DNA from: Pseudomonadota bacterium | GTDB taxonomy: Bacteria > Pseudomonadota > Gammaproteobacteria > Burkholderiales > Burkholderiaceae_C | Length of the DNA stretch: 40,386 nucleotides | Reading direction: 5' to 3' | NCBI GenBank assembly: GCA_018242005.1 | Contig: JAFECU010000261.1 | Span: forward strand, 1-40,386 | Shown: piece after piece, positions 15,486-24,904 of the stretch | How the letters are laid out: every line of letters starts with the position of its first letter | Numbering within the stretch: position 1 is the first letter of the stretch | Position numbers and translations under genes: made by a program | The notes under the pieces: generated by a model | Seen by the model: only the letters and a program-made list of their open reading frames with translations | What the model was told of the DNA's origin: nothing | Databases searched by the model: none

Positions 15486-15658
15486 GGCACCGTTCCTCAG
15501 CGCGGAGAACAATGAAGTCTGGCACCAGTATGGGCGAAATGCAGGCATTGTTCGACATCCGGGGCCGATGTCACCTGTGGGACGGAGCCTACATGACGCG
15601 CATGTTGGCGATGGTTGGTGCTCACGCATCCCGGCCTGGAATTGATTTGTATCAGGTT

Positions 15659-15688
15659 TTGATTCGTTTTATTTTACATCGCTATATA
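15659..15688 (+). promoter_or_regulatory. Candidate upstream promoter of the molybdenum operon
   Basis: A -35-like TTGATT at 15659-15664 and a -10-like TATATA at 15683-15688 are 18 bases apart. The -10 element lies inside the first ModE-like box, so a bound ModE dimer would block it. A second candidate is TTGGCG at 15741-15746 with TATATA at 15763-15768 (16-base spacer), which overlaps the second box in the same way. The surrounding 150 bases are strikingly AT-rich for this genome. Confidence 0.45.
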
Positions 15689-15705
15689 TTGATATATATT
15701 TCGAT
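15678..15705. promoter_or_regulatory. ModE-like operator, box 1
   Basis: The left half is ATCGCTATATA (15678-15688), then six bases (TTGATA), then the right half TATATTTCGAT (15695-15705). The known ModE operator is two inverted ATCGNTATATA halves spaced by about six bases; this site has one mismatch within the defined positions. In E. coli ModE binds as a molybdate-loaded dimer and represses molybdate-uptake genes. Location upstream of the TonB-dependent receptor and of an operon ending in modE makes a functional site likely. Confidence 0.8.
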
Positions 15706-15757
15706 TCAATTACCAAAGGATGCCATTGCATTGGCAGGTGTTGGCGTTTTTTTGCCA

Positions 15758-15785
15758 GTCGCTATATATAGAAGTCTATAACGCA
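15758..15785. promoter_or_regulatory. ModE-like operator, box 2
   Basis: The left half is GTCGCTATATA (15758-15768), then TAGAAG, then TCTATAACGCA (15775-15785). The left half differs from the ModE consensus only at the first base; the right half has a few more mismatches. It lies 80 bases downstream of box 1, so both could be on the same DNA face and act together. Confidence 0.65.
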
Positions 15786-15908
15786 TCGAGGGTGGAAATG
15801 GAAGATGAGGTGTCGGTGAGGAAGCGGGGGACGGGGAGACTGAAGGACTTGGAAATCGTCGGCTGCAAATCGACCGCGGTGCATCATTTCCCACCGTCTT
15901 GCTGCCCA

Positions 15909-17972
15909 ATGGCTCGGTTATTGGACCGCCACTTCAAATCCGGCAACAGCTGGCCTCGCTGGGGCCAGTTTTGGCTGAGCCGGTCTACGAGAGCGCCTTC
16001 GGCGCTTCAAGTCCTGCAGCCGCCTGGACGCAGCGCGGCCGCCCTGGTGCTGGTGGCGTTGGGCCTATGCGCTGGCACGGCGCAGGCGGCAGACGGTGTG
16101 TTCGAGTTGGGCACGGTGACCGTGGTGGGCGCCCCGGTGAAGAGCCAGGCGGCCGACGAGGCCGTGCTGGGCCAGGATGAAATCGCCCGCTACAACGCAG
16201 ACACGGTGTCCGACGCGGTGCGCCTGCTGCCCGGTGTAAGCATCACGAGCGGTGGTGCCCGCAACGAGGAAATGGTCTACGTGCGCGGCTTTGATGCGCG
16301 CCAGGTGCCGGTGTTCGTCGATGGCGTGCCGCTCTACGTGCCCTATGACGGCTACGTGGACTTCGGCCGCTTCACCACCTTCGACCTCGCCGAGATTCGC
16401 GTCGCCAAGGCCGATGCCTCGCTGCTCTACGGCCCCAACACGCTGGGCGGGACGATCAACCTCGTCACGCGCAAGCCCGTCAAGCCGTTCGAGGGCGATG
16501 CGCGCCTGGGGTTCGGCTCGGGGCAGACGCGCAAGGCGGCGCTCAATCTGGGCGGCAACCAGGGGCTGTGGTACTACCAGCTGGGCGCGTCGTACCTGGA
16601 TGCCGACAGCTTTCCGCTGCCCAAGGGTTTCAAGGACTACAAGGCCCGTCCGACCGACACCGGCAGTGAGCGCGAGAACGCCTATCGCAGCGACAGGCGC
16701 CTGTCGTTCAAGCTCGGCCTCACGCCCAACGCCACGGACGAATACGCGCTGGGCTACGTGCGCCAGGAAGGCGAGAAGGGCAACCCGGTCTACACCGGCC
16801 AATCCAGGCAAAAGAACGCCGTGCGCTACTGGCGCTGGCCCTATTGGGACAAGGACAGCGTGTACTTTTTGAGCACCACGCGCATCGGCAGCGACAACGT
16901 GCTCAAGACGCGCCTGTTCCACGACACCTACAAGAACGGCCTGGACATCTACAAGGACGCGAGCTACACCACGCACGACCCGACCAGCGCCTACAAGGAC
17001 ACGAGCAAGGGCGCCAGCATCGAGTGGGCGAACTACAGCTTTGCCGGCCATGAGCTGCGCTTTGCCGCCCACTACAAGGTCGATGAGCATGACGACACGG
17101 GCAAGTTCTACCGCGACGTGACGACCTCCGTGGTCGCCGAGGACACCATCGCGCTGTCCGACCGCTGGCACCTGACGCTGGGCGCGAGCCACGAAAAGCG
17201 CGACGCCAAGGAGGTCTATTACTGGCCCAGGGGCTCCACCAGCGCCACCAATGGCCTGGCGCGCCTGGGCTACGCGCTCACGCAGCAGGGCGACGAGGTC
17301 TATGCCGTGCTCTCGCACAAGACGCGCTTTCCCACCATCAAGGATCGCTACTCGGCACGCATGGGCACGGCTCTGCCCAACCCCGACCTCAAGCCCGAGG
17401 CCGCCAACCACTTCGAGCTGGGTGTGAGCGGCCAGCCATGGCCGGGCGGCAAGGGCCAGGCGGCCCTGTTCCACAGCCGCGTCAGCGACCAGATACAGAC
17501 CGTGGTCGTGCCCTCGGGCGCCTGCGGCGGCAGCACCTGCAATCAGGCGCAGAACGTGGGCCGCACGCGCAACCAGGGGCTGGAGCTGTCGCTCGCGCAG
17601 CGGCTCTCGCCCCAGTGGAGCGCCAACGCCAGCTACACCTACCTGCAGCGCACCAACCTGAGCAACCGCAGCGTTACCCTGACGGACACACCGCGCCATC
17701 GCCTCTTTGCAGCGGTGCACTGGCTGCCCGCCGCGCAGTGGGAGCTGCAGGCCACGCTGGAGGCCGAGCAGGGCCGCCGCGTGAGCTATGACGGCGCCTA
17801 CCGCCAGCTTGGCGGTTTCGGCACCGCCGGGCTCAAGGCGGTCTACAGGCCCGTGAAGGACTTTGCGCTCGACTTCGGCGTGAACAATCTGGGCGACAAG
17901 TGGTATGAGCTGGCAGACGGCTACCCCATGCCGGGCCGGTTCTGGTACGTCAATGGCACATACCGTTTCTGA
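15909..17972 (+). CDS. TonB-dependent outer-membrane receptor, probable molybdenum/tungsten uptake
   Basis: 687 residues from ATG 15909; the start is uncertain, because ATG 15798 has a better ribosome-binding site (GAGGGTGGAA) but gives a very long leader. A hydrophobic signal core (AAALVLVALGLCAGTAQA) precedes a TonB-box-like GTVTVVG. The plug domain follows (DAVRLLPGVSITSGGARNEE, VYVRGFDARQVPVFVDGVPL, ASLLYGPNTLGGTINLVTRK). The barrel ends FWYVNGTYRF with the terminal phenylalanine. Such receptors import large or scarce ligands, usually metal chelates, using TonB energy. ModE-like boxes upstream and modD/modE downstream suggest a molybdenum or tungsten compound. A siderophore or cobalamin receptor is the alternative. 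Confidence 0.88.
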   Translation: MARLLDRHFKSGNSWPRWGQFWLSRSTRAPSALQVLQPPGRSAAALVLVALGLCAGTAQAADGVFELGTVTVVGAPVKSQAADEAVLGQDEIARYNADTVSDAVRLLPGVSITSGGARNEEMVYVRGFDARQVPVFVDGVPLYVPYDGYVDFGRFTTFDLAEIRVAKADASLLYGPNTLGGTINLVTRKPVKPFEGDARLGFGSGQTRKAALNLGGNQGLWYYQLGASYLDADSFPLPKGFKDYKARPTDTGSERENAYRSDRRLSFKLGLTPNATDEYALGYVRQEGEKGNPVYTGQSRQKNAVRYWRWPYWDKDSVYFLSTTRIGSDNVLKTRLFHDTYKNGLDIYKDASYTTHDPTSAYKDTSKGASIEWANYSFAGHELRFAAHYKVDEHDDTGKFYRDVTTSVVAEDTIALSDRWHLTLGASHEKRDAKEVYYWPRGSTSATNGLARLGYALTQQGDEVYAVLSHKTRFPTIKDRYSARMGTALPNPDLKPEAANHFELGVSGQPWPGGKGQAALFHSRVSDQIQTVVVPSGACGGSTCNQAQNVGRTRNQGLELSLAQRLSPQWSANASYTYLQRTNLSNRSVTLTDTPRHRLFAAVHWLPAAQWELQATLEAEQGRRVSYDGAYRQLGGFGTAGLKAVYRPVKDFALDFGVNNLGDKWYELADGYPMPGRFWYVNGTYRF

Positions 17973-18498
17973 CATCGCAGCCGTCGTCTATGGCGACGAC
18001 ATGGCCCACGGCGAAGCCGCCGATGCGCTGGTGCTGCAGTTCTGCCGTGACCTGCAGGCGGCAGGCTGGCGTGTGGGCGGCCTGGCCCAGCAATGCGTGC
18101 CGGCCCAGGGCGGTGGCAAGCCGCGCCTGCAACTGGTGGACATGCGCACGGGGCAGGTGTTTTCCATCTCGCAGAAGCTCGGGCCGCTTTCGCGCGGATG
18201 CAGTCTCGATACCGCGGGCATCGCCCAGGCCAGCAGCGTGCTGCGGCAGGCGCTCGTCGACCGAGTCGATCTGGCGGTGACCAATCGGTTTGGCGAACTG
18301 GAGGCCCAGGGCCGCGGGTTTGCGGCCGAAATGGCCGCGCTGGCGGATGCCGGCACCCCCGTGCTCACGGTGGTTGCGGCCAAGCACCTCGATGGCTGGC
18401 GGCGCTTCACCGGGGGGCTGGGCGAGGAGCTGCCCGCGCGCGCCCCGGCGCTACGGGCCTGGTTCAGTCTGCTCACGGGCCGCGAGGTGCCCGCGTGA
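17953..18498 (+). CDS. DUF2478-family protein of a molybdenum gene cluster
   Basis: 181 residues from ATG 17953, which lies 20 bases inside the receptor gene. It opens DIAAVVYGDDMAHGEAADAL and contains GWRVGGLAQQC, QKLGPLSRGCSLD, DLAVTNRFGELEAQGRGFAAE and TPVLTVVAAKHLDGWRRF. I match this to DUF2478, which I recall as a companion of molybdenum-related genes. The middle part resembles the THEP1-type NTPase fold (a Gly-rich start, then a D...E..G.GF segment), but there is no intact GxxxxGK[ST] loop, so nucleotide hydrolysis is doubtful. Its overlap with the receptor and the next gene (TGATG) places it firmly in the operon. Confidence 0.65.
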   Translation: MAHTVSDIAAVVYGDDMAHGEAADALVLQFCRDLQAAGWRVGGLAQQCVPAQGGGKPRLQLVDMRTGQVFSISQKLGPLSRGCSLDTAGIAQASSVLRQALVDRVDLAVTNRFGELEAQGRGFAAEMAALADAGTPVLTVVAAKHLDGWRRFTGGLGEELPARAPALRAWFSLLTGREVPA

Positions 18499-19553
18499 TG
18501 CGCAGGCGTCTGCTATTGCAATGGCCGCTGGCGTTGGCTGCCGCGCAGGTGTGCGCGCAGGGGACGCAGCGGGCACAGGGGGCGCAGGTGGTGGTCGTTG
18601 CGCAGTTCGGCGCGCTGCCCGCACCCGAGCGCGTGCGCAAGGTGTTCGCGGCCGGCCCGCCCGCCGGCGTGCTGGTGGCCGCGCTGGCGCCGGGCAAGCT
18701 CATCGGCTGGCCGCAGACGCTGGGCGGCGACGCCCGCGCCTTCCTCGGGCCGCAGCTGCGTGGGCTGCCGCACACCGGCCGCCTGTCCGGGCGCGGCAGC
18801 ACGGTGCCGCTCGAAGCGCTGCTGCAGCTAGCGCCCGACCTGGTGCTGGATGCGGGCACGGCCGACGCCACCTACGTCTCCGGCGTGCGCCGCGTGAGCG
18901 AGCAGACCGGCCTGCCGACGGTGTTGATCCAGGGCCGCATAGCCGACCATGCCGCGCAGCTGCGCGAAGTGGGGCGGCTGCTGGGCGTGGCGGAGCACGG
19001 CGAGCGGCTCGCGGCACAGGCGCAGGCCGCCATCGACCTGGCCGCGCAGGTGCGCGCCAGCGTGGCGCCCCATCAGCGCCCGCGTGTTTATTACGGGCGC
19101 GGCGCGGACGGGCTGGAGACGGGCCTGGCCGGATCGATCAACGTGGAGCTGCTGGACTTCTGTGCTGGCCGCAACGTTGCGGCCGATGCGGGCCAGGGCT
19201 CGCTCACGCGCGTGTCGCTGGAACAGCTGCTGGCGTGGAACCCCGAGGTCATCGTCACGCAGGACGCGGCCTTTGCGCGCCGCGTGCGCACCGATCCGCT
19301 GTGGCGCGGCATTGCCGCCGTGCAGGCGCAGCGCGTGCACTGCGCGCCCACGCTGCCCTTCGGCTGGCTGGACGGCCCCCCGGGCGTCAACCGCCTGATC
19401 GGCGTGCGCTGGCTGCTCGAGCGCCTGCACCCCGCTCACCCGGCGCTGCGCACGCTGGAGCCTTTCAACGAGGCCGTGCGGCGCTTCTACCAGTCCTTCT
19501 ACGGTGCCAGCCTGGCGCCGCAGGAGGTGCAAAGACTGCTCGATGGAATATAG
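18498..19553 (+). CDS. Periplasmic binding protein of a class-II (FecCD-type) ABC importer
   Basis: 351 residues from ATG 18498, overlapping the previous stop by one base. A signal peptide (MRRRLLLQWPLALAAAQVCA) is present without a clear lipobox. The fold of BtuF/FhuD/MolA-type proteins is suggested by PLEALLQLAPDLVLDAGTAD, TYVSGVRRVSEQTGLPTVLI, SLEQLLAWNPEVIVTQDAAF and RVHCAPTLPFGWLDGPPGVN. The last segment, with a GWLDGPPG loop, is a feature I associate with molybdate/tungstate or metal-chelate binding members. Family relatives carry iron siderophores, cobalamin, haem or molybdate (MolA of Haemophilus). The operon context favours the last. Confidence 0.85.
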   Translation: MRRRLLLQWPLALAAAQVCAQGTQRAQGAQVVVVAQFGALPAPERVRKVFAAGPPAGVLVAALAPGKLIGWPQTLGGDARAFLGPQLRGLPHTGRLSGRGSTVPLEALLQLAPDLVLDAGTADATYVSGVRRVSEQTGLPTVLIQGRIADHAAQLREVGRLLGVAEHGERLAAQAQAAIDLAAQVRASVAPHQRPRVYYGRGADGLETGLAGSINVELLDFCAGRNVAADAGQGSLTRVSLEQLLAWNPEVIVTQDAAFARRVRTDPLWRGIAAVQAQRVHCAPTLPFGWLDGPPGVNRLIGVRWLLERLHPAHPALRTLEPFNEAVRRFYQSFYGASLAPQEVQRLLDGI

Positions 19554-20610
19554 GTCAAATCGGGCTACAGCGCTTACTGGTAAAGCGCCAGAAGCTTCGT
19601 TTTCAATAGCAATGCCGCTGCGCTGGTTGCTGGCAGTGGCCCTGCTCGCGGCCGTGGTGCTGCTGGCCTTTGCCTCCGGCAAGTATCCAGTGGCGCCGGC
19701 CGACCTGTGGCGCGCCGTGGCTGCGCGCGTGACGGGCGGTGAATTGGGCCTGTCGCCTGCGGTGCAGACGGTGGTCTGGCACATCCGCCTGCCGCGCGTG
19801 GCAGCGGGCCTGCTCGTGGGCATGGCGCTGGCGGCAGCGGGCGCTGCCTACCAGGGCATGTTCCGCAACCCCCTGGTCTCGCCCGACATCCTGGGCGTGT
19901 CGGCCGGCGCGGGGCTGGGCGCGGTGGTCGCCATCTACCTGGGCCTGCCGATCGCGGTGGTGCAGGCGCTGGCCTTCGTCGGCGGGCTGCTGGCCGTGGG
20001 CGCGGTGCTGGCGGTGGCGGGCCTGGTGCGGCGGCATGACCCGGTGCTGGTGCTGGTGCTCGCGGGTGTGGCCGTGGGCGCGCTGCTGGGTGCGGGCATA
20101 TCGCTCATCAAGATCCTGGCCGACCCGACGACGCAGCTGCCTTCGATCACCTTCTGGCTGCTTGGCGGCCTCAATGCCGTCACGCCCGCCGACCTGGCCG
20201 CCACGGCGCCCGCGCTGCTGGCCGGGCTGGTGCCGCTGGCGCTGCTGCGCTGGCGTGTCAATCTCTTGAGCCTGCCCGACGAGGAGGCGCAGGCACTGGG
20301 CGTGTCCGTGGCGCGGCTGCGTCTGGTGCTGGTGGCTGCGGCCACGCTGGCCACGGCGGCGGCCGTGTCGCTCACCGGCATCATCGGCTGGGTGGGGCTG
20401 GTGGTGCCGCATGTAGCGCGGCTGCTGGTGGGGCCGGAGTTCTCACGCCTGCTGCCCGCGTCGCTGCTGCTTGGCGGCGGCTTTCTGGTGGCGGCCGACA
20501 CGCTGGCGCGCACGGCCGCGGCGATCGAGCTGCCGCTGGGCATCCTCACCGCGCTGGTGGGTGCGCCGTTCTTCCTGTTCCTGCTGGCGCGTGGAGGCAA
20601 GGGCGCATGA
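19543..20610 (+). CDS. FecCD/MolB-type ABC importer permease
   Basis: 355 residues from ATG 19543, which overlaps the binding-protein gene by 11 bases; ATG 19612 (332 residues) is equally possible and closer to the usual family length. The extra N-terminus (RSNRATALTGKAPEASFSIA) is encoded almost entirely by a 58-bp dispersed repeat at 19554-19611. Ten hydrophobic helices are expected. Marks are VVWHIRLPRVAAGLLVGMAL, AYQGMFRNPLVSPDILGVSAG, the coupling segment PDEEAQALGVSVARLR and GWVGLVVPHVARLLVG. It forms a homodimer with the next gene's ATPase. Confidence 0.92.
   Translation: MEYRSNRATALTGKAPEASFSIAMPLRWLLAVALLAAVVLLAFASGKYPVAPADLWRAVAARVTGGELGLSPAVQTVVWHIRLPRVAAGLLVGMALAAAGAAYQGMFRNPLVSPDILGVSAGAGLGAVVAIYLGLPIAVVQALAFVGGLLAVGAVLAVAGLVRRHDPVLVLVLAGVAVGALLGAGISLIKILADPTTQLPSITFWLLGGLNAVTPADLAATAPALLAGLVPLALLRWRVNLLSLPDEEAQALGVSVARLRLVLVAAATLATAAAVSLTGIIGWVGLVVPHVARLLVGPEFSRLLPASLLLGGGFLVAADTLARTAAAIELPLGILTALVGAPFFLFLLARGGKGA
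19554..19611 (+). repeat. 58-bp dispersed repeat between binding-protein stop and permease ATG
   Basis: It begins immediately after the TAG stop of the binding protein (19551-19553) and ends immediately before ATG 19612. Ungapped alignment with the copy in dnaX (27110-27167) gives 34 identities in 58, concentrated in GCT..AGCGC, AGCGC, GCT and TAGCA blocks. Such conserved cores with variable linkers suggest a mobile or processed repeat family of the host lineage. Confidence 0.7.
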
Positions 20611-21380
20611 CGGCGGTGCTGCAGGCGCAGGCCCTCTCCATCGGCCATGGCCGGCGCTGCGTGGCGCAGGGCATCGACTTTGCGCTCGCGCCCGGCGAGG
20701 TGCTGTGCCTGCTGGGCGCCAACGGCAGTGGCAAGACCACGTTGCTGCGCACGCTGCTGGGGCTGCTCGCGCCGCTGGCGGGCGCGGTGCGCTGCAGCGG
20801 GCAGGACGTGGCCGCCTGGCCGCGCGCGGCCTTTGCCCGGCATGTGGGCTATGTGCCGCAGGCGCACGCGGGCTTGTTCCCCTTCACCGTGGAGGACGTG
20901 GTGCTCATGGGCCGCGCCGCGCGCGTGGGGCGCTTTTCTGCGCCGGGCGCCGAAGACCGGCGCATTGCCCGGCATTGCCTTGAGCTGCTGGGTATCGCGC
21001 ATCTGCGCGCCAGCAGCTACACGGCGATCAGCGGCGGCGAGCGCCAGCTCGCGCTCATCGCACGCGCGCTGGCGCAGGAGCCCGCGCTCCTGGTCATGGA
21101 CGAGCCCACGGCCAGCCTGGACTTTGGCAACCAGATCCGGGTGCTCGAACACATCGCGCGCCTGCGCGCGGGCGGCATGGCCGTCCTGATGACCACGCAC
21201 CAGCCCGAGCACGCGCTGCGCATAGCCGACCGCATTGCGCTGCTGGGCGGCGGGCGGCTCGCCGCCATCGGTGCGCCGCGTGTGGTCGCCACGCCGGCCA
21301 CCCTGGCCGCGCTCTACGGCGTGGGCGAGGGCGCCGTTGCCGCCTCGCTTTCGCCCTTTCTCGACCGGATGACCGCATGA
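20607..21380 (+). CDS. ABC importer ATPase (FecE/MolC-type)
   Basis: 257 residues. The Walker A motif is GANGSGKT (residues 37-44), the Q loop is at YVPQAH, the signature SGGERQ begins at 142, Walker B is LLVMDEP (161-167) and the switch histidine lies in MTTHQPEH. Subtype is the FecE/BtuD/MolC group that pairs with FecCD permeases. The start overlaps the permease stop by four bases and the stop overlaps the methyltransferase start by four bases, so expression is tightly coupled. It drives substrate release into the cytoplasm. Confidence 0.93.
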   Translation: MTAVLQAQALSIGHGRRCVAQGIDFALAPGEVLCLLGANGSGKTTLLRTLLGLLAPLAGAVRCSGQDVAAWPRAAFARHVGYVPQAHAGLFPFTVEDVVLMGRAARVGRFSAPGAEDRRIARHCLELLGIAHLRASSYTAISGGERQLALIARALAQEPALLVMDEPTASLDFGNQIRVLEHIARLRAGGMAVLMTTHQPEHALRIADRIALLGGGRLAAIGAPRVVATPATLAALYGVGEGAVAASLSPFLDRMTA

Positions 21381-22171
21381 CCATCGAAGCCATCGACTTC
21401 GCCCGCCTGTACCGCGACCACCTGGCCATGGCCGCCCGCACGCGCAAGAGCGCCAGCGCCTGGGATTCGCGTGCGGCGGGCATGGCCGCCAGGGCGCTGC
21501 AGAGCAGCTATGCGCGGGACTTTGTCGCGCGCATGGATTTGACCGGCGCGCGCTCGCTGCTGGACGTGGGCTGCGGCCCCGGCACGATTGCGCTGGCCGT
21601 CGCCGCGCGTCTGGAGCGCGTGCTGGCGCTGGACTACAGCGCCGCCATGCTCGATGCGCTGCGCACGCAGGCCGCCGCCCGGGGTCTTACCCACGTGCAG
21701 ACCGTGCACCGCGCCTGGGAGGACGACTGGAGCGACCTGCCTGCGTGCGACATCGCCGTCGCCTCGCGCGCCACGCTGGTGGACGACATAGGCGCGGCGC
21801 TGGCCAGGCTCGACGCCCATGCGCGCCTGCGCGTCTATGTCACGCACCCGGTGGGCGGGCATTTTTTGGACCCCGCCATCCAGCACGTGATTGGCCGCAG
21901 CCTGCCCAGCACGCCGGACTACATCTACCTCGTGAACATCCTGCACCGCATGGGCATTCACCCGCGGCTGGACTACCTGACGCAGGAAAGCCGCCTGGCC
22001 GGCGCCCAGGACTTTGCTGACTACGCGCAGCGCGTCGCCTGGTCGACGGGCGGGCTGGCCGAGGACGAGACCGCGCGGCTGCAGGCCTGGTACGAGCGCG
22101 CCACGTCCGCCGAGCGCACGGGCGCGCCGATGCGCTGGGCCTTCATCTCGTGGGAGAAAACGCCATGCTGA
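21377..22171 (+). CDS. Class I SAM-dependent methyltransferase of the molybdenum operon
   Basis: 264 residues. The SAM-binding motif I is SLLDVGCGPGTIALAVA (residues 60-76), with the acidic motif II at VLALDYSAAMLD. The C-terminal half (HVIGRSLPSTPDYIYLVNIL, HRMGIHPRLDYLTQES) is not assigned to a known substrate class. It overlaps the ATPase gene by four bases and the DUF364 gene by seven, so it is a true member of the transport operon. Possible roles are methylating a metal chelator or detaching metal from one; neither is shown. The presence of a methyltransferase in a metal-uptake operon is unusual. Confidence 0.85.
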   Translation: MTIEAIDFARLYRDHLAMAARTRKSASAWDSRAAGMAARALQSSYARDFVARMDLTGARSLLDVGCGPGTIALAVAARLERVLALDYSAAMLDALRTQAAARGLTHVQTVHRAWEDDWSDLPACDIAVASRATLVDDIGAALARLDAHARLRVYVTHPVGGHFLDPAIQHVIGRSLPSTPDYIYLVNILHRMGIHPRLDYLTQESRLAGAQDFADYAQRVAWSTGGLAEDETARLQAWYERATSAERTGAPMRWAFISWEKTPC

Positions 22172-23004
22172 ATACCGACACCGATGGCCTGCTGGCCGAA
22201 CTGCATGCCGACGTGCGGGACGCGCTGGGCCAGGAGACGTTGGCGCAATTGCGCGTCGCCCGTGCCGTGGTGGGCATATTCTTCACCGGCGTGCAGCTCG
22301 AGAACGGCGTGGGCGGCCTGTGCGCCACGCCCATCAAGAGCGTGCCCGAGGCCGTGTGCTGCCCCAGTTCGGCCCTGGCCATGCCTGTGCCGGGCCGCAT
22401 CGCTGGACGCAGCGCGGCCGAGGTGCTGCAAGATCTGTTCCGCCCTCAGGACCTGCGCAGGGCGCTGGCCATCGCCACGCTCAACGCACTGGCCGAAACG
22501 CTGTGGCTGCGGGACGGCCCGCCACCCGGTGCGCGCGTGGTCGCGGGCGATGCATTCGATGCGCTGGCAATTGCTCCTGGCGAGCGCGTGGCGCTGGTGG
22601 GCGCCTTCCCGCCCTACCTGCGCGCGCTCAGGCGCAGCGGCCAGCCCTTCCATGTGCTGGAACTCGACCCGGCAACGCTCAAGCCCGAGGAACTGCCGTT
22701 CTTCGTGCCCGCCGAACGCGCGCCCGAAATCGTCGCCCAGGCCGACGTGCTCATCACCACCGGCACGACCCTGGTCAACGGCACGCTGGACGATCTGCTG
22801 CGCCACCTGCGCCCCGGCGCCAAGGCCGCCGTGGTGGGCCCCACGGCCACGCTGCGCGCCGCGCCGTTCGCGCGCCGGGGTGCCACCGTGGTCGGCGGCA
22901 CGCGCGTGCATGCGCCTGCCGAGCTGCTGGACCTGCTGGCCGAAGGGGGCTCGGGCTACCACTTCTTCGGCAAGTCGGTCGAACGCGTCTGTCTTTGTGT
23001 GTGA
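22165..23004 (+). CDS. DUF364/DUF4213 putative heavy-metal chelation protein
   Basis: 279 residues from ATG 22165, with a GGAG element upstream. The N-terminal part (VVGIFFTGVQLENGVGGLCATP, KSVPEAVCCPSS) fits DUF4213 and the C-terminal Rossmann-like part (ERVALVGAFPPYLRALRRSG, ADVLITTGTTLVNGTLDDLL, AAVVGPTATLRAAP) fits DUF364. Cysteines C58, C70 and C71 are candidate metal ligands. Both domains are annotated in Pfam as putative heavy-metal chelation, but the biochemistry is not established. Its position between a methyltransferase and modD supports a link to metal handling after uptake, perhaps chelate opening or metal storage. Confidence 0.8.
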   Translation: MLNTDTDGLLAELHADVRDALGQETLAQLRVARAVVGIFFTGVQLENGVGGLCATPIKSVPEAVCCPSSALAMPVPGRIAGRSAAEVLQDLFRPQDLRRALAIATLNALAETLWLRDGPPPGARVVAGDAFDALAIAPGERVALVGAFPPYLRALRRSGQPFHVLELDPATLKPEELPFFVPAERAPEIVAQADVLITTGTTLVNGTLDDLLRHLRPGAKAAVVGPTATLRAAPFARRGATVVGGTRVHAPAELLDLLAEGGSGYHFFGKSVERVCLCV

Positions 23005-23057
23005 AGGAAACCCATGCCTGCGCTGGCCTTCTTTGTTCCACGCCGCTGGGGAGCGCT

Positions 23058-23909
23058 ATGAATTCCGTGTTTTTCGACCATGCCACGATCGACGCCTGGA
23101 TTGCCGAGGATGCACCGCTGGTCGACCTGACCACCCATCTGCTCGCCATCGGCGGCCGGCAGGCGCGCATGCGCCTGACCATCCGCGGCGAGGCCGTGGC
23201 CGCCTGCACCGAGGAGGCCGCGCGCGTCGTGCAGCACTGCGGCGCAAGTGTGGAGAGCCTGCTGGCGAGCGGCACGGCCGTGGCTGCGGGGGATGTGCTG
23301 CTGGCCGCCACGGGCGACGCCGCCGGCCTGCTGCGCGCCTGGAAGGTGGCGCAGAATCTGCTGGAGTACGCCTGCGGCGTGGCCGGCGCCACCGCGCGCA
23401 TGGTGCACGCCGTGCAGGCCGCGGCGCCCGGCGTGGCCGTGCTCACCACGCGCAAGCACGCGCCAGGGCTGCGCCGCATGGCGCTCAAGGCGACGCTCTC
23501 CGGCGGCGCCTTCCCGCACCGCCTGGGCGTGGGCGAGTCGGTGCTGGTGTTTCCCCAGCACCGCGCGCTCGCGGGCGGTTGGGACGGCGTGGCCGCTCGC
23601 CTGGCTGCCGCAGCGCCCGCGCTGGCCGAAAAGAAATGCGTGGTGGAGGCCCACTCGCTGCAAGAGGCTCTGCGCGCCGCCGAAGCGGGCGCAGACGTGG
23701 TGCAGTTCGACAAGGCCACGCCCGCCGATCTGCGTGCCTGGTGCCCGCCGCTGCGCCTGCGCCACCCGCGGCTGGGTCTTCTGGCCGCCGGCGGCATCCA
23801 CCTTGGCAACGCTGTGGATTACGCCACCAGCGGCGTGGATGCCCTGGTCACCAGCAGCCTGCACTACGCGCCGCCCGCCGATGTGGGGGTGAGCGTGGAG
23901 CCGGTGTAG
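23058..23909 (+). CDS. modD: ModD, quinolinate phosphoribosyltransferase-like molybdenum-operon protein
   Basis: 283 residues from ATG 23058. It follows the NadC fold: VAQNLLEYACGVAGATARMV, the catalytic-site stretch TTRKHAPGLRRMALKATLSG (R132, K133), FPHRLGVGESVLVF and VEAHSLQEALRAAEAGADVV. The family is named ModD because it often lies in molybdenum transport operons; its reaction is not known. It is short of features needed for NAD synthesis only by inference from context. It follows the DUF364 gene after 53 bases and precedes modE by 42 bases. Confidence 0.87.
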   Translation: MNSVFFDHATIDAWIAEDAPLVDLTTHLLAIGGRQARMRLTIRGEAVAACTEEAARVVQHCGASVESLLASGTAVAAGDVLLAATGDAAGLLRAWKVAQNLLEYACGVAGATARMVHAVQAAAPGVAVLTTRKHAPGLRRMALKATLSGGAFPHRLGVGESVLVFPQHRALAGGWDGVAARLAAAAPALAEKKCVVEAHSLQEALRAAEAGADVVQFDKATPADLRAWCPPLRLRHPRLGLLAAGGIHLGNAVDYATSGVDALVTSSLHYAPPADVGVSVEPV

Positions 23910-23951
23910 CCCAGCTTTGTTGCCTACACTGGCGCCGTTGAAAGGACGGAC

Positions 23952-24779
23952 ATGGCTTCACAAGAGCAGCAGGATGATGGGCGCATTGCATTGCGCGGAT
24001 CGGTGTGGATGACTGTCGATGGCCGCAACCTGGGTGGCCAGGGCCGGGTCGAACTGCTCACGCAGATTGCCACGCATGGCTCCATCACCGGGGCCGCCAA
24101 GGCCATGGGGATGAGTTACAAGGCGGCATGGGATGCGATCGATGCCATGAACCAGCTCGCGGGCGAGCCGCTGGTGCAGCGGCTCGTCGGCGGCAAGGGG
24201 GGCGGGGGCACGCGGCTGACCGAAAGGGGGCAGCGGCTGGTGCGCAGCTTCGGCGTCATCGAGCGCGCACACCGTCAGTTTGTGGACCAGCTCAGCGCAC
24301 AGGCCCAGGGCGTGGCCGACGATTTTTTGTTGATAAGGAAAATGGGTATGAGAACGAGCGCGCGCAATCAATTCTTTGGCACGGTGTCCTGCGTGACCAC
24401 CGGGGCCGTGAATGACGAGATCACGCTGGAGGTGCCTGGCATGGACACGGGCATCGTGGCCATCGTCACCCATGGCAGCGCCGTGGAACTGGGCCTGACG
24501 CCGGGGGCCGAGGCCTTTGCGCTGGTCAAGGCTTCGTCGATCATCGTGGCCACTGAAGACCAGGGCGCCAGGTTTTCGGCGCGCAACTGCCTCAAGGGTA
24601 CGGTGTCGCGCGTGCAGAAGGGTGCCGTGAACACCGAGGTCGTGATCGGCCTGCCCGGCGGTGGCGCGGTGGCCGCCATCATCACCAACGAAAGCTGCGA
24701 CGCGCTGGGCCTGGCGCCGGGCGTGGCCGCGTCGGCGCTGTTCAAGGCGTCGAGCGTGATCATGGGGGTACCCGCTTAG
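23952..24779 (+). CDS. modE: ModE-family molybdate-responsive regulator
   Basis: 275 residues. The N-terminal winged helix-turn-helix (VELLTQIATHGSITGAAKAM, SYKAAWDAIDAMNQL) is followed by two Mop/TOBE molybdate-binding domains starting near residues 136 and 209, each with the signature SARN (SARNQ and SARNC). This is the full-length ModE layout. In E. coli molybdate binding makes ModE repress uptake genes and activate some molybdoenzyme genes. As the last gene of the operon it can set up feedback on the ModE-like boxes at 15678-15785. The short intergenic region upstream holds no clear operator of its own. Confidence 0.93.
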   Translation: MASQEQQDDGRIALRGSVWMTVDGRNLGGQGRVELLTQIATHGSITGAAKAMGMSYKAAWDAIDAMNQLAGEPLVQRLVGGKGGGGTRLTERGQRLVRSFGVIERAHRQFVDQLSAQAQGVADDFLLIRKMGMRTSARNQFFGTVSCVTTGAVNDEITLEVPGMDTGIVAIVTHGSAVELGLTPGAEAFALVKASSIIVATEDQGARFSARNCLKGTVSRVQKGAVNTEVVIGLPGGGAVAAIITNESCDALGLAPGVAASALFKASSVIMGVPA

Positions 24780-24804: not shown

Positions 24805-24904
24805 GGTGACGAGCCTTACCCCCGGCACTGGCTCCACAGTTAGGGCTGCTTGGTTCCCCACCTGACCCGGTTGGCCGCTTCACCATGCGGGGAGGCCCGT
24901 CGCC
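24805..24904 (-). ncRNA. ffs: 4.5S signal recognition particle RNA (bacterial small type)
   Basis: The minus strand contains the conserved SRP core: GGGTCAGGTGGGGAACCAAG followed by CAGCCCTAACTG, which matches the tetraloop hairpin and asymmetric loop of 4.5S RNA. The ends pair: GACGGGCCT (24901-24893) with AGGCTCGTC (24816-24808), nine consecutive pairs including one G-U. Length about 100 nucleotides fits the bacterial small SRP RNA. It binds Ffh and targets membrane proteins to the translocon. Location near dnaX is common in betaproteobacteria. Confidence 0.93.

Follow-up and report, generated by a model that had tools for sequence, protein, structure and literature searches.

A ModE-boxed operon that joins a TonB-dependent receptor to a MolABC-like importer, a probable uptake route for a molybdenum or tungsten compound

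In the textbook view, molybdate crosses the outer membrane through porins. At the inner membrane, Haemophilus influenzae can employ MolABC (HI1470-1472), whose binding protein MolA binds molybdate and tungstate directly according to the available part of its description (PMC4031551). TonB-dependent receptors for bare metal ions have been reported, namely MnoT for manganese and OprC for copper (PMC8602904, available part), and in Escherichia coli a receptor-containing cluster, prrA-modD-yc73-fepC, has been published as a putative iron uptake system (available parts of PMC1890555, PMC2323221, and PMC12928451). Here, we describe an operon from a Pseudomonadota bacterium of the Burkholderiaceae_C (assembly GCA_018242005.1; genome total, 3.96 Mb) that combines features of these systems. 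It consists of nine genes on the + strand, at 15.9 to 24.8 kb of a 40,386-nucleotide stretch of contig JAFECU010000261.1, hereafter called the window. The operon is preceded by two predicted binding sites for the molybdate-responsive regulator ModE and probably serves, under ModE repression, to bring in a molybdenum or tungsten compound by way of TonB when the metal is scarce.

To define the gene content, families were assigned by Pfam and NCBIfam scores, which confirmed all nine genes named in a sequence-only reading of the same DNA. The first gene encodes a TonB-dependent receptor of what we call the ModE-linked family (15909..17972), with Plug (PF07715, 76 bits) and barrel (PF00593, 127 bits) domains that both score above cut-off. 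Its start is uncertain. The first in-frame ATG lies at 15720 and similarity to relatives starts, with the mature part, at about 16089; ATG 15909 or a later start is more likely because ATG 15720 lies upstream of the second ModE box. The receptor gene is followed by genes for a DUF2478 protein (PF10649; 17953..18498; 168 bits against a cut-off of 22.3), which has weak NTPase_1 similarity below the NTPase_1 cut-off, and for an importer matching the families Peripla_BP_2, FecCD, and ABC_tran: a MolA-like periplasmic binding protein (PF01497; 18498..19553), a FecCD-type, MolB-like permease (19543..20610; start chosen in this analysis), and a MolC-like ATP-binding cassette (ABC) ATPase (20607..21380). 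Family matches identify the next products as a class I S-adenosylmethionine (SAM)-dependent methyltransferase (21377..22171) and a DUF364/DUF4213 protein described as "putative heavy-metal chelation" (22165..23004; GTG 22150 is a possible earlier start). The last two genes encode the quinolinate phosphoribosyltransferase-like ModD (23058..23909; TIGR01334, 208.8 bits against a cut-off of 178.85) and ModE itself (23952..24779), which carries a helix-turn-helix (HTH) and two molybdate-binding stretches (two TOBE and two Mop matches). ModE exceeds the TIGR00637 cut-off (104.6 against 98.5 bits) and lies below that of the equivalog PRK10676 (190.5 against 369). Given the chosen starts, six of the eight gene junctions overlap, in agreement with the mostly overlapping starts and stops noted earlier: receptor/DUF2478 by 20 bases, DUF2478/binding protein by 1, binding protein/permease by 11, permease/ATPase by 4, ATPase/methyltransferase by 4, and methyltransferase/DUF364 by 7. 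Gaps of 53 and 42 bases precede ModD and ModE, respectively.

The two ModE-like boxes that the sequence-only reading had placed before the operon were then scored using a single motif definition. Compared with the consensus ATCGCTATATAN6TATATAACGAT (available part of PMC2700814), box 1 (15678..15705) agrees at 20 of 22 positions and box 2 (15758..15785) at 18 of 22, while the third-best site of the 40-kb window reaches 13/22. The top score in Markov shuffles of the whole window (n = 100) was 15/22, and in shuffles of the local AT-rich stretch (n = 2000) it was 17/22, reached once. The sites at 15678 and 15758 thus both score as ModE boxes, as in a putative ModE-regulon operon. Box 1 overlaps the sole promoter-like site found within 15600 to 16000 (15673-15700), although this site is weak evidence because shuffles average 0.6 such sites. 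Box 2 matches the shorter pattern CGnTATA-N10-TATAnCG with 0 mismatches. Allowing at most one mismatch, this pattern occurs at three places in the whole genome, two of them at the operon, compared with one place for a reversed control pattern. The genome contains seven Plug-domain matches, and the six others are not on contigs bearing such a site. Its modA sits on a separate contig, close to a second ModE-like gene (L117:4564-5346, contig C191) with an HTH and one TOBE stretch, and no ModE site with two or fewer mismatches was present within the 13 kb read of the modA contig. The genome perhaps holds two molybdate regulators with separate sites.

To determine whether boxes accompany this receptor elsewhere, a query built from the window receptor and five orthologues from the window's order (50-71% identical) was matched to a genome collection. 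It found 158 relatives, of which the best 80 were used, giving 81 loci with the window. After exclusion of two receptors that were not full length (L037 and L076), the remaining 79 were clustered at 80% identity into 52 representatives. Across these 52 sequences, the window among them, 85 positions are near invariant; 67 to 74 of the 85 are kept in seven distant relatives, against 25 to 35 in six other TonB receptors. The family spans Proteobacteria, Desulfuromonadales, and one Bacteroidete. The latter is a Mucilaginibacter receptor (L103:9404-12019), which has a 1-mismatch site and is closely preceded by a ModE-like open reading frame (ORF).

Sites were scanned from -700 to +100 of the receptor in the 79 of 81 loci that were testable. 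The best site had 0 mismatches in 20 loci, 1 in 23, and 2 in 12, with none in 24. For comparison, 0, 0.03, and 0.72 loci are expected from Markov shuffles of this upstream DNA, and 6, 8, and 22 sites of these classes occur in the remainder of the loci (1.53 Mb). When operon starts were scanned in 51 of the 52 representatives (L060 was excluded for its short upstream region), sites with 0, 1, and 2 mismatches were found in 9, 16, and 11, and none in 15. Box-bearing members include the Acidovorax sp. MR-S7 type (L025) and Pseudomonas jinjuensis (L059). Operons of the C. testosteroni type and three loci from Desulfuromonadales are among those without a box; another locus counted there, L066, has a 1-mismatch site before a partner gene, beyond the reach of the script. 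The boxes that had been noticed at one locus are found to recur at similar ones: the link holds across these 51 non-redundant loci, with 15 exceptions, and also in the window's own taxonomic family. In that family, 21 receptor places were detected, in 19 of 299 genomes (E up to 1e-120). Within 700 bases upstream of the 20 non-window places, the best site had 0, 1, 2, 3, and 4-5 mismatches in 3, 3, 7, 2, and 5 places, so that 13 of 20 have a box with two or fewer mismatches, whereas shuffles of these stretches yielded 0.08 loci at 2 mismatches and nothing at 0 or 1. Some genomes of this survey also occur in the receptor-relative set.

All of these loci were selected by receptor similarity, save in a search that began from the box. 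In the 299 genomes, 13 exact sites were found in 12 genomes, and four of them precede a receptor match, by 113, 115, 191, and 306 bases; the 306-base case is the window itself. The chance expectation for this placement, with the window excluded, is estimated at about 1e-4. Because the reversed control pattern occurs at 11 places in nine genomes, most of the genome-wide exact matches may be due to chance, and it is their placement that counts. One genome (G461) has two exact sites, neither of which precedes its receptor.

We next turned to the genes that accompany the receptor. These were counted with ORF and phmmer scripts, using the window proteins and a few proteins of relatives as queries, and the counts may be too low, above all for ModD; some loci also end early at contig ends. 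Type A (28/52 representatives), which is defined by the FecCD-type importer and includes the window, has the binding protein in 28, the permease in 24, DUF2478 in 20, the methyltransferase in 13, ModE in 8, ModA in 7, and DUF364 in 5. In type B (15/52), a small protein of the molybdopterin oxidoreductase fold (PF00174) adjoins the receptor, with ModE nearby in 12. Type C (7/52) has an SBP_bac_6 binding protein in all seven and a DHOR di-haem protein in six. Two of the 52 fit no type, and a few labels involved a choice: L083 was assigned to A though it also has a PF00174 partner, L042 to B although DUF2478 and an importer lie farther along, L103 to B on a weak PF00174 match (E 3e-5), and L068 to C though it has both partners. 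Sites with 0 or 1 mismatch were found in 14/28 loci of type A, 10/15 of type B (L060 included), and 2/7 of type C. On a maximum-likelihood tree, counting well-supported branches, the three labels must change at least 4, 7, and 4 times. The receptor keeps the switch while its partners change, a pattern that, we argue, ties the switch to the cargo of the receptor.

Among the PF00174 partners, such as L080:11975-12517 and L094:11959-12501, which lie beside a ModE-linked receptor and often beside ModE, a cysteine column is common to 16/20 rows and an R-H-V motif to 18/20. A profile from 11 of them matches sulfite oxidase (1ogp, E 3e-6) in an alignment that takes in the C-terminal motif region, and much more weakly nitrate reductase (2bii), where the cysteine aligns with V-C-A-G-N. 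The cysteine of that motif is presumably the molybdenum ligand of 2bii. The SBP_bac_6 and DHOR partners are exemplified by L082:11986-14720, L090:12005-14700, and L120:2105-4828, the last an Azospirillum locus in which both genes precede the receptor, behind a 2-mismatch site. Plain molybdate transport genes also enter the operons of close relatives: modA and modB lie between DUF364 and modD in L024, modA alone takes that position in L025 and L062, and modA-modB precedes modD in L035, whereas the window has neither gene at the corresponding place. At one locus (L018:8515-18001), a 1-mismatch ModE box accompanies a different class of TonB receptor together with DUF2478, the same methyltransferase, MolBC-like genes, an O-methyltransferase, DUF364, and a radical SAM protein nearest HmdB (116 bits, cut-off 321). 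This locus may serve both to make and to take up a metallophore. Likewise, L042:15061-20810 has a TonB receptor, DUF2478, and an importer in succession.

Other features were noted in the same DNA and genome. A bacterial small signal recognition particle (SRP) RNA gene (24805-24901, - strand; 63.9 bits) lies directly 3' of modE on the opposite strand, with a dnaX-like ORF, named by eye, beyond it; the SRP RNA is the sole Rfam match, and no riboswitch was detected in the window at the gathering threshold. Elsewhere in the genome, a PF00384 molybdoenzyme (C228:7495-9144) has an in-frame TGA within the match and is possibly a selenocysteine enzyme.

In order to place the receptor among known families, it was compared with curated models. 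It scores below the cut-off in all 25 families listed of the 32 that it matched (siderophore, haem, B12, copper, pyrroloquinoline quinone [PQQ], and others), with 117.7 bits against 599.7 for the TonB-B12 equivalog and 154 against 223.5 for the siderophore model TIGR01783. An identity as a cobalamin or siderophore receptor was rejected on these cut-offs. The E. coli receptor PrrA similarly falls below the cut-off in 14/14 siderophore, haem, and B12 receptor models. Among solved receptors, CirA, PhuR, and ferric enterobactin receptors come closest by sequence. The binding protein is closest to 4pag, an uncharacterised structure (E 9e-34), followed by MolA (E 1e-12) and BtuF (E 2e-5). A firm placement of either protein among cobalamin or siderophore systems, which the sequence-only reading had named as evidence against itself, was not seen in these scores, as the receptor stays below the listed cut-offs and the binding protein is nearer MolA than BtuF.

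Collectively, the boxes, the family scores, and the 51-locus and family surveys support the ModE-boxed route from TonB to the cytoplasm, with its own modE gene, that had been proposed from the sequence. We infer the metal specificity, the complexed ligand, the enzyme roles, and the repression as follows. With plentiful molybdate, ModE-molybdate would occupy both boxes and shut the promoter, and scarcity would lift this repression. The receptor would then pull a molybdenum- or tungsten-bearing compound through the outer membrane. Given the importer class and the presence of methyltransferase and DUF364 genes only with type A, this compound is most likely to be a complex and not the free anion. 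The structure paper for DUF364 independently groups that family with genes for the transport of molybdate, tungstate, vanadium, and iron (PMC2954201). The MolA-like binding protein and the FecCD-type ABC importer would pass the compound to the cytoplasm. There, release or handling of the metal may be aided by the methyltransferase, DUF364, DUF2478, and ModD, and ModE, encoded by the last gene of the operon, would close the loop. A broader proposal, which we put forward tentatively and with less confidence, is that the whole receptor family, PrrA included, imports a molybdenum or tungsten complex under ModE control, the cargo being a molybdophore or else a pterin or pyridine compound derived from a cofactor. 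Three interchangeable modules would unload it: cytoplasmic MolABC with the methyltransferase, DUF364, and ModD; a periplasmic molybdopterin-fold protein; or a periplasmic binding protein with a di-haem oxidoreductase.

The nature of the cargo can be read in other ways. Free molybdate or tungstate might be taken up without a chelator, by a high-affinity relay suited to very dilute supplies, leaving the enzymes to other duties. Direct anion binding by MolA and the reports on MnoT and OprC fit such a relay, but the methyltransferase (13/28) and DUF364 (5/28) are found in type A and in 0/24 representatives elsewhere, as if cargo reaching the cytoplasm needed processing, and we regard uptake of the bare anion as unlikely. 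Scavenging of molybdenum cofactor or molybdopterin from outside, with the methyltransferase freeing the metal by S-methylating the dithiolene, is still less probable. Urothione formation offers a parallel for dithiolene S-methylation. This idea draws on type B, in which a periplasmic PF00174 protein partners the receptor, the conserved residues and sulfite oxidase match of that protein included, and on the structure paper for DUF364, which in its available part predicts action on flavin- or pterin-like compounds (PMC2954201). However, type A, the type of the window, lacks the PF00174 partner in all but 1/28 representatives, that protein may be a plain molybdoenzyme, and ModD also occurs beside plain modABC (table in the available part of PMC2700814). 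A further point against it is that free molybdenum cofactor is unstable.

The cargo might instead be an iron siderophore or another chelate, with ModE control being secondary, for example to supply iron to molybdoenzymes. The filing of the E. coli relative under iron uptake and the nearest solved receptors would agree with this, whereas the unmet siderophore, haem, and B12 cut-offs in both receptors, the recurrence of molybdenum genes beside the receptor, and the ModE boxes in all three partner types make it about as improbable as cofactor scavenging. Least credible by far is a corrinoid (B12) uptake operon. The FecCD importer, the BtuF-like fold of the binding protein, and the methyltransferase, whose best NCBIfam match is a corrinoid-associated family (40 bits against a cut-off of 180), recall such operons, yet the receptor score is far from the TonB-B12 cut-off, the window is without a riboswitch at the Rfam threshold, and ModE boxes are present. 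We therefore favor ModE-repressed uptake of a molybdenum or tungsten compound, probably in complexed form.

No paper tying this receptor family to ModE or molybdenum, and no published molybdenum TonB receptor, was found in the open-access literature, a scope that leaves most subscription journals outside, in which "ModE" was blurred by matching "mode," and which is not proof of novelty. A 2003 study by Studholme and Pau reportedly dealt with ModE sites and is likely prior art. The available parts of papers on Flavobacterium IR1, Azotobacter, Marinobacter, and Stenotrophomonas do not describe the system, and those of a Comamonas testosteroni transcriptome study report three induced genes with consecutive tags, for a binding protein, a receptor, and an unknown product, that could not be mapped to the operon. 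Because relatives that include the E. coli "iron" system carry a ModE-type switch, the results point to an overlooked molybdenum route. If a ModE-controlled TonB receptor family is borne out, many bacteria would spend energy on fetching molybdenum or tungsten, probably as a complex. Its genes would provide a genetic handle on molybdophores and a functional context for DUF2478, DUF364, and ModD, whose roles are unsettled, and the E. coli putative iron-uptake cluster, present in 2094/5426 complete genomes, would be reassigned.

That cluster (ECs_1693-1699 in O157 Sakai) resembles the operon in sequence, with identities of 40% for the binding protein, 62% for the permease, 46% for the ATPase, 43% for the methyltransferase, 34% for ModD, and 33% for the receptor. 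It also has an upstream ModE box, with 0 mismatches in 3/4 strains read. It differs in that the receptor gene comes last rather than first and that no DUF2478, DUF364, or ModE is annotated in the operon. In O157:H7 strain 6535NalR, the methyltransferase gene (L126:5784-6596) is annotated as broken by an internal stop, while the other five operon genes are not. MolABC shares with the window a binding protein and a type II (FecCD-class) importer, and MolA is a relative of the window's binding protein, though not its nearest structure, which is 4pag; the word TonB is absent from the main text of the MolABC paper, as far as that text is available (PMC4031551). ModABC systems with ModD and ModE have the same regulator and ModD, and close relatives of the operon hold modA or modAB inside it; in contrast, the window importer is of the FecCD class, and the genome's own modA lies elsewhere without such a box. 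The window receptor is below the B12, PqqU, and copper-receptor cut-offs, and to our knowledge none of BtuB, PqqU, OprC, and MnoT is ModE controlled. What these four have in common with the role proposed for the window operon is the energised import of a scarce cofactor or metal across the outer membrane.

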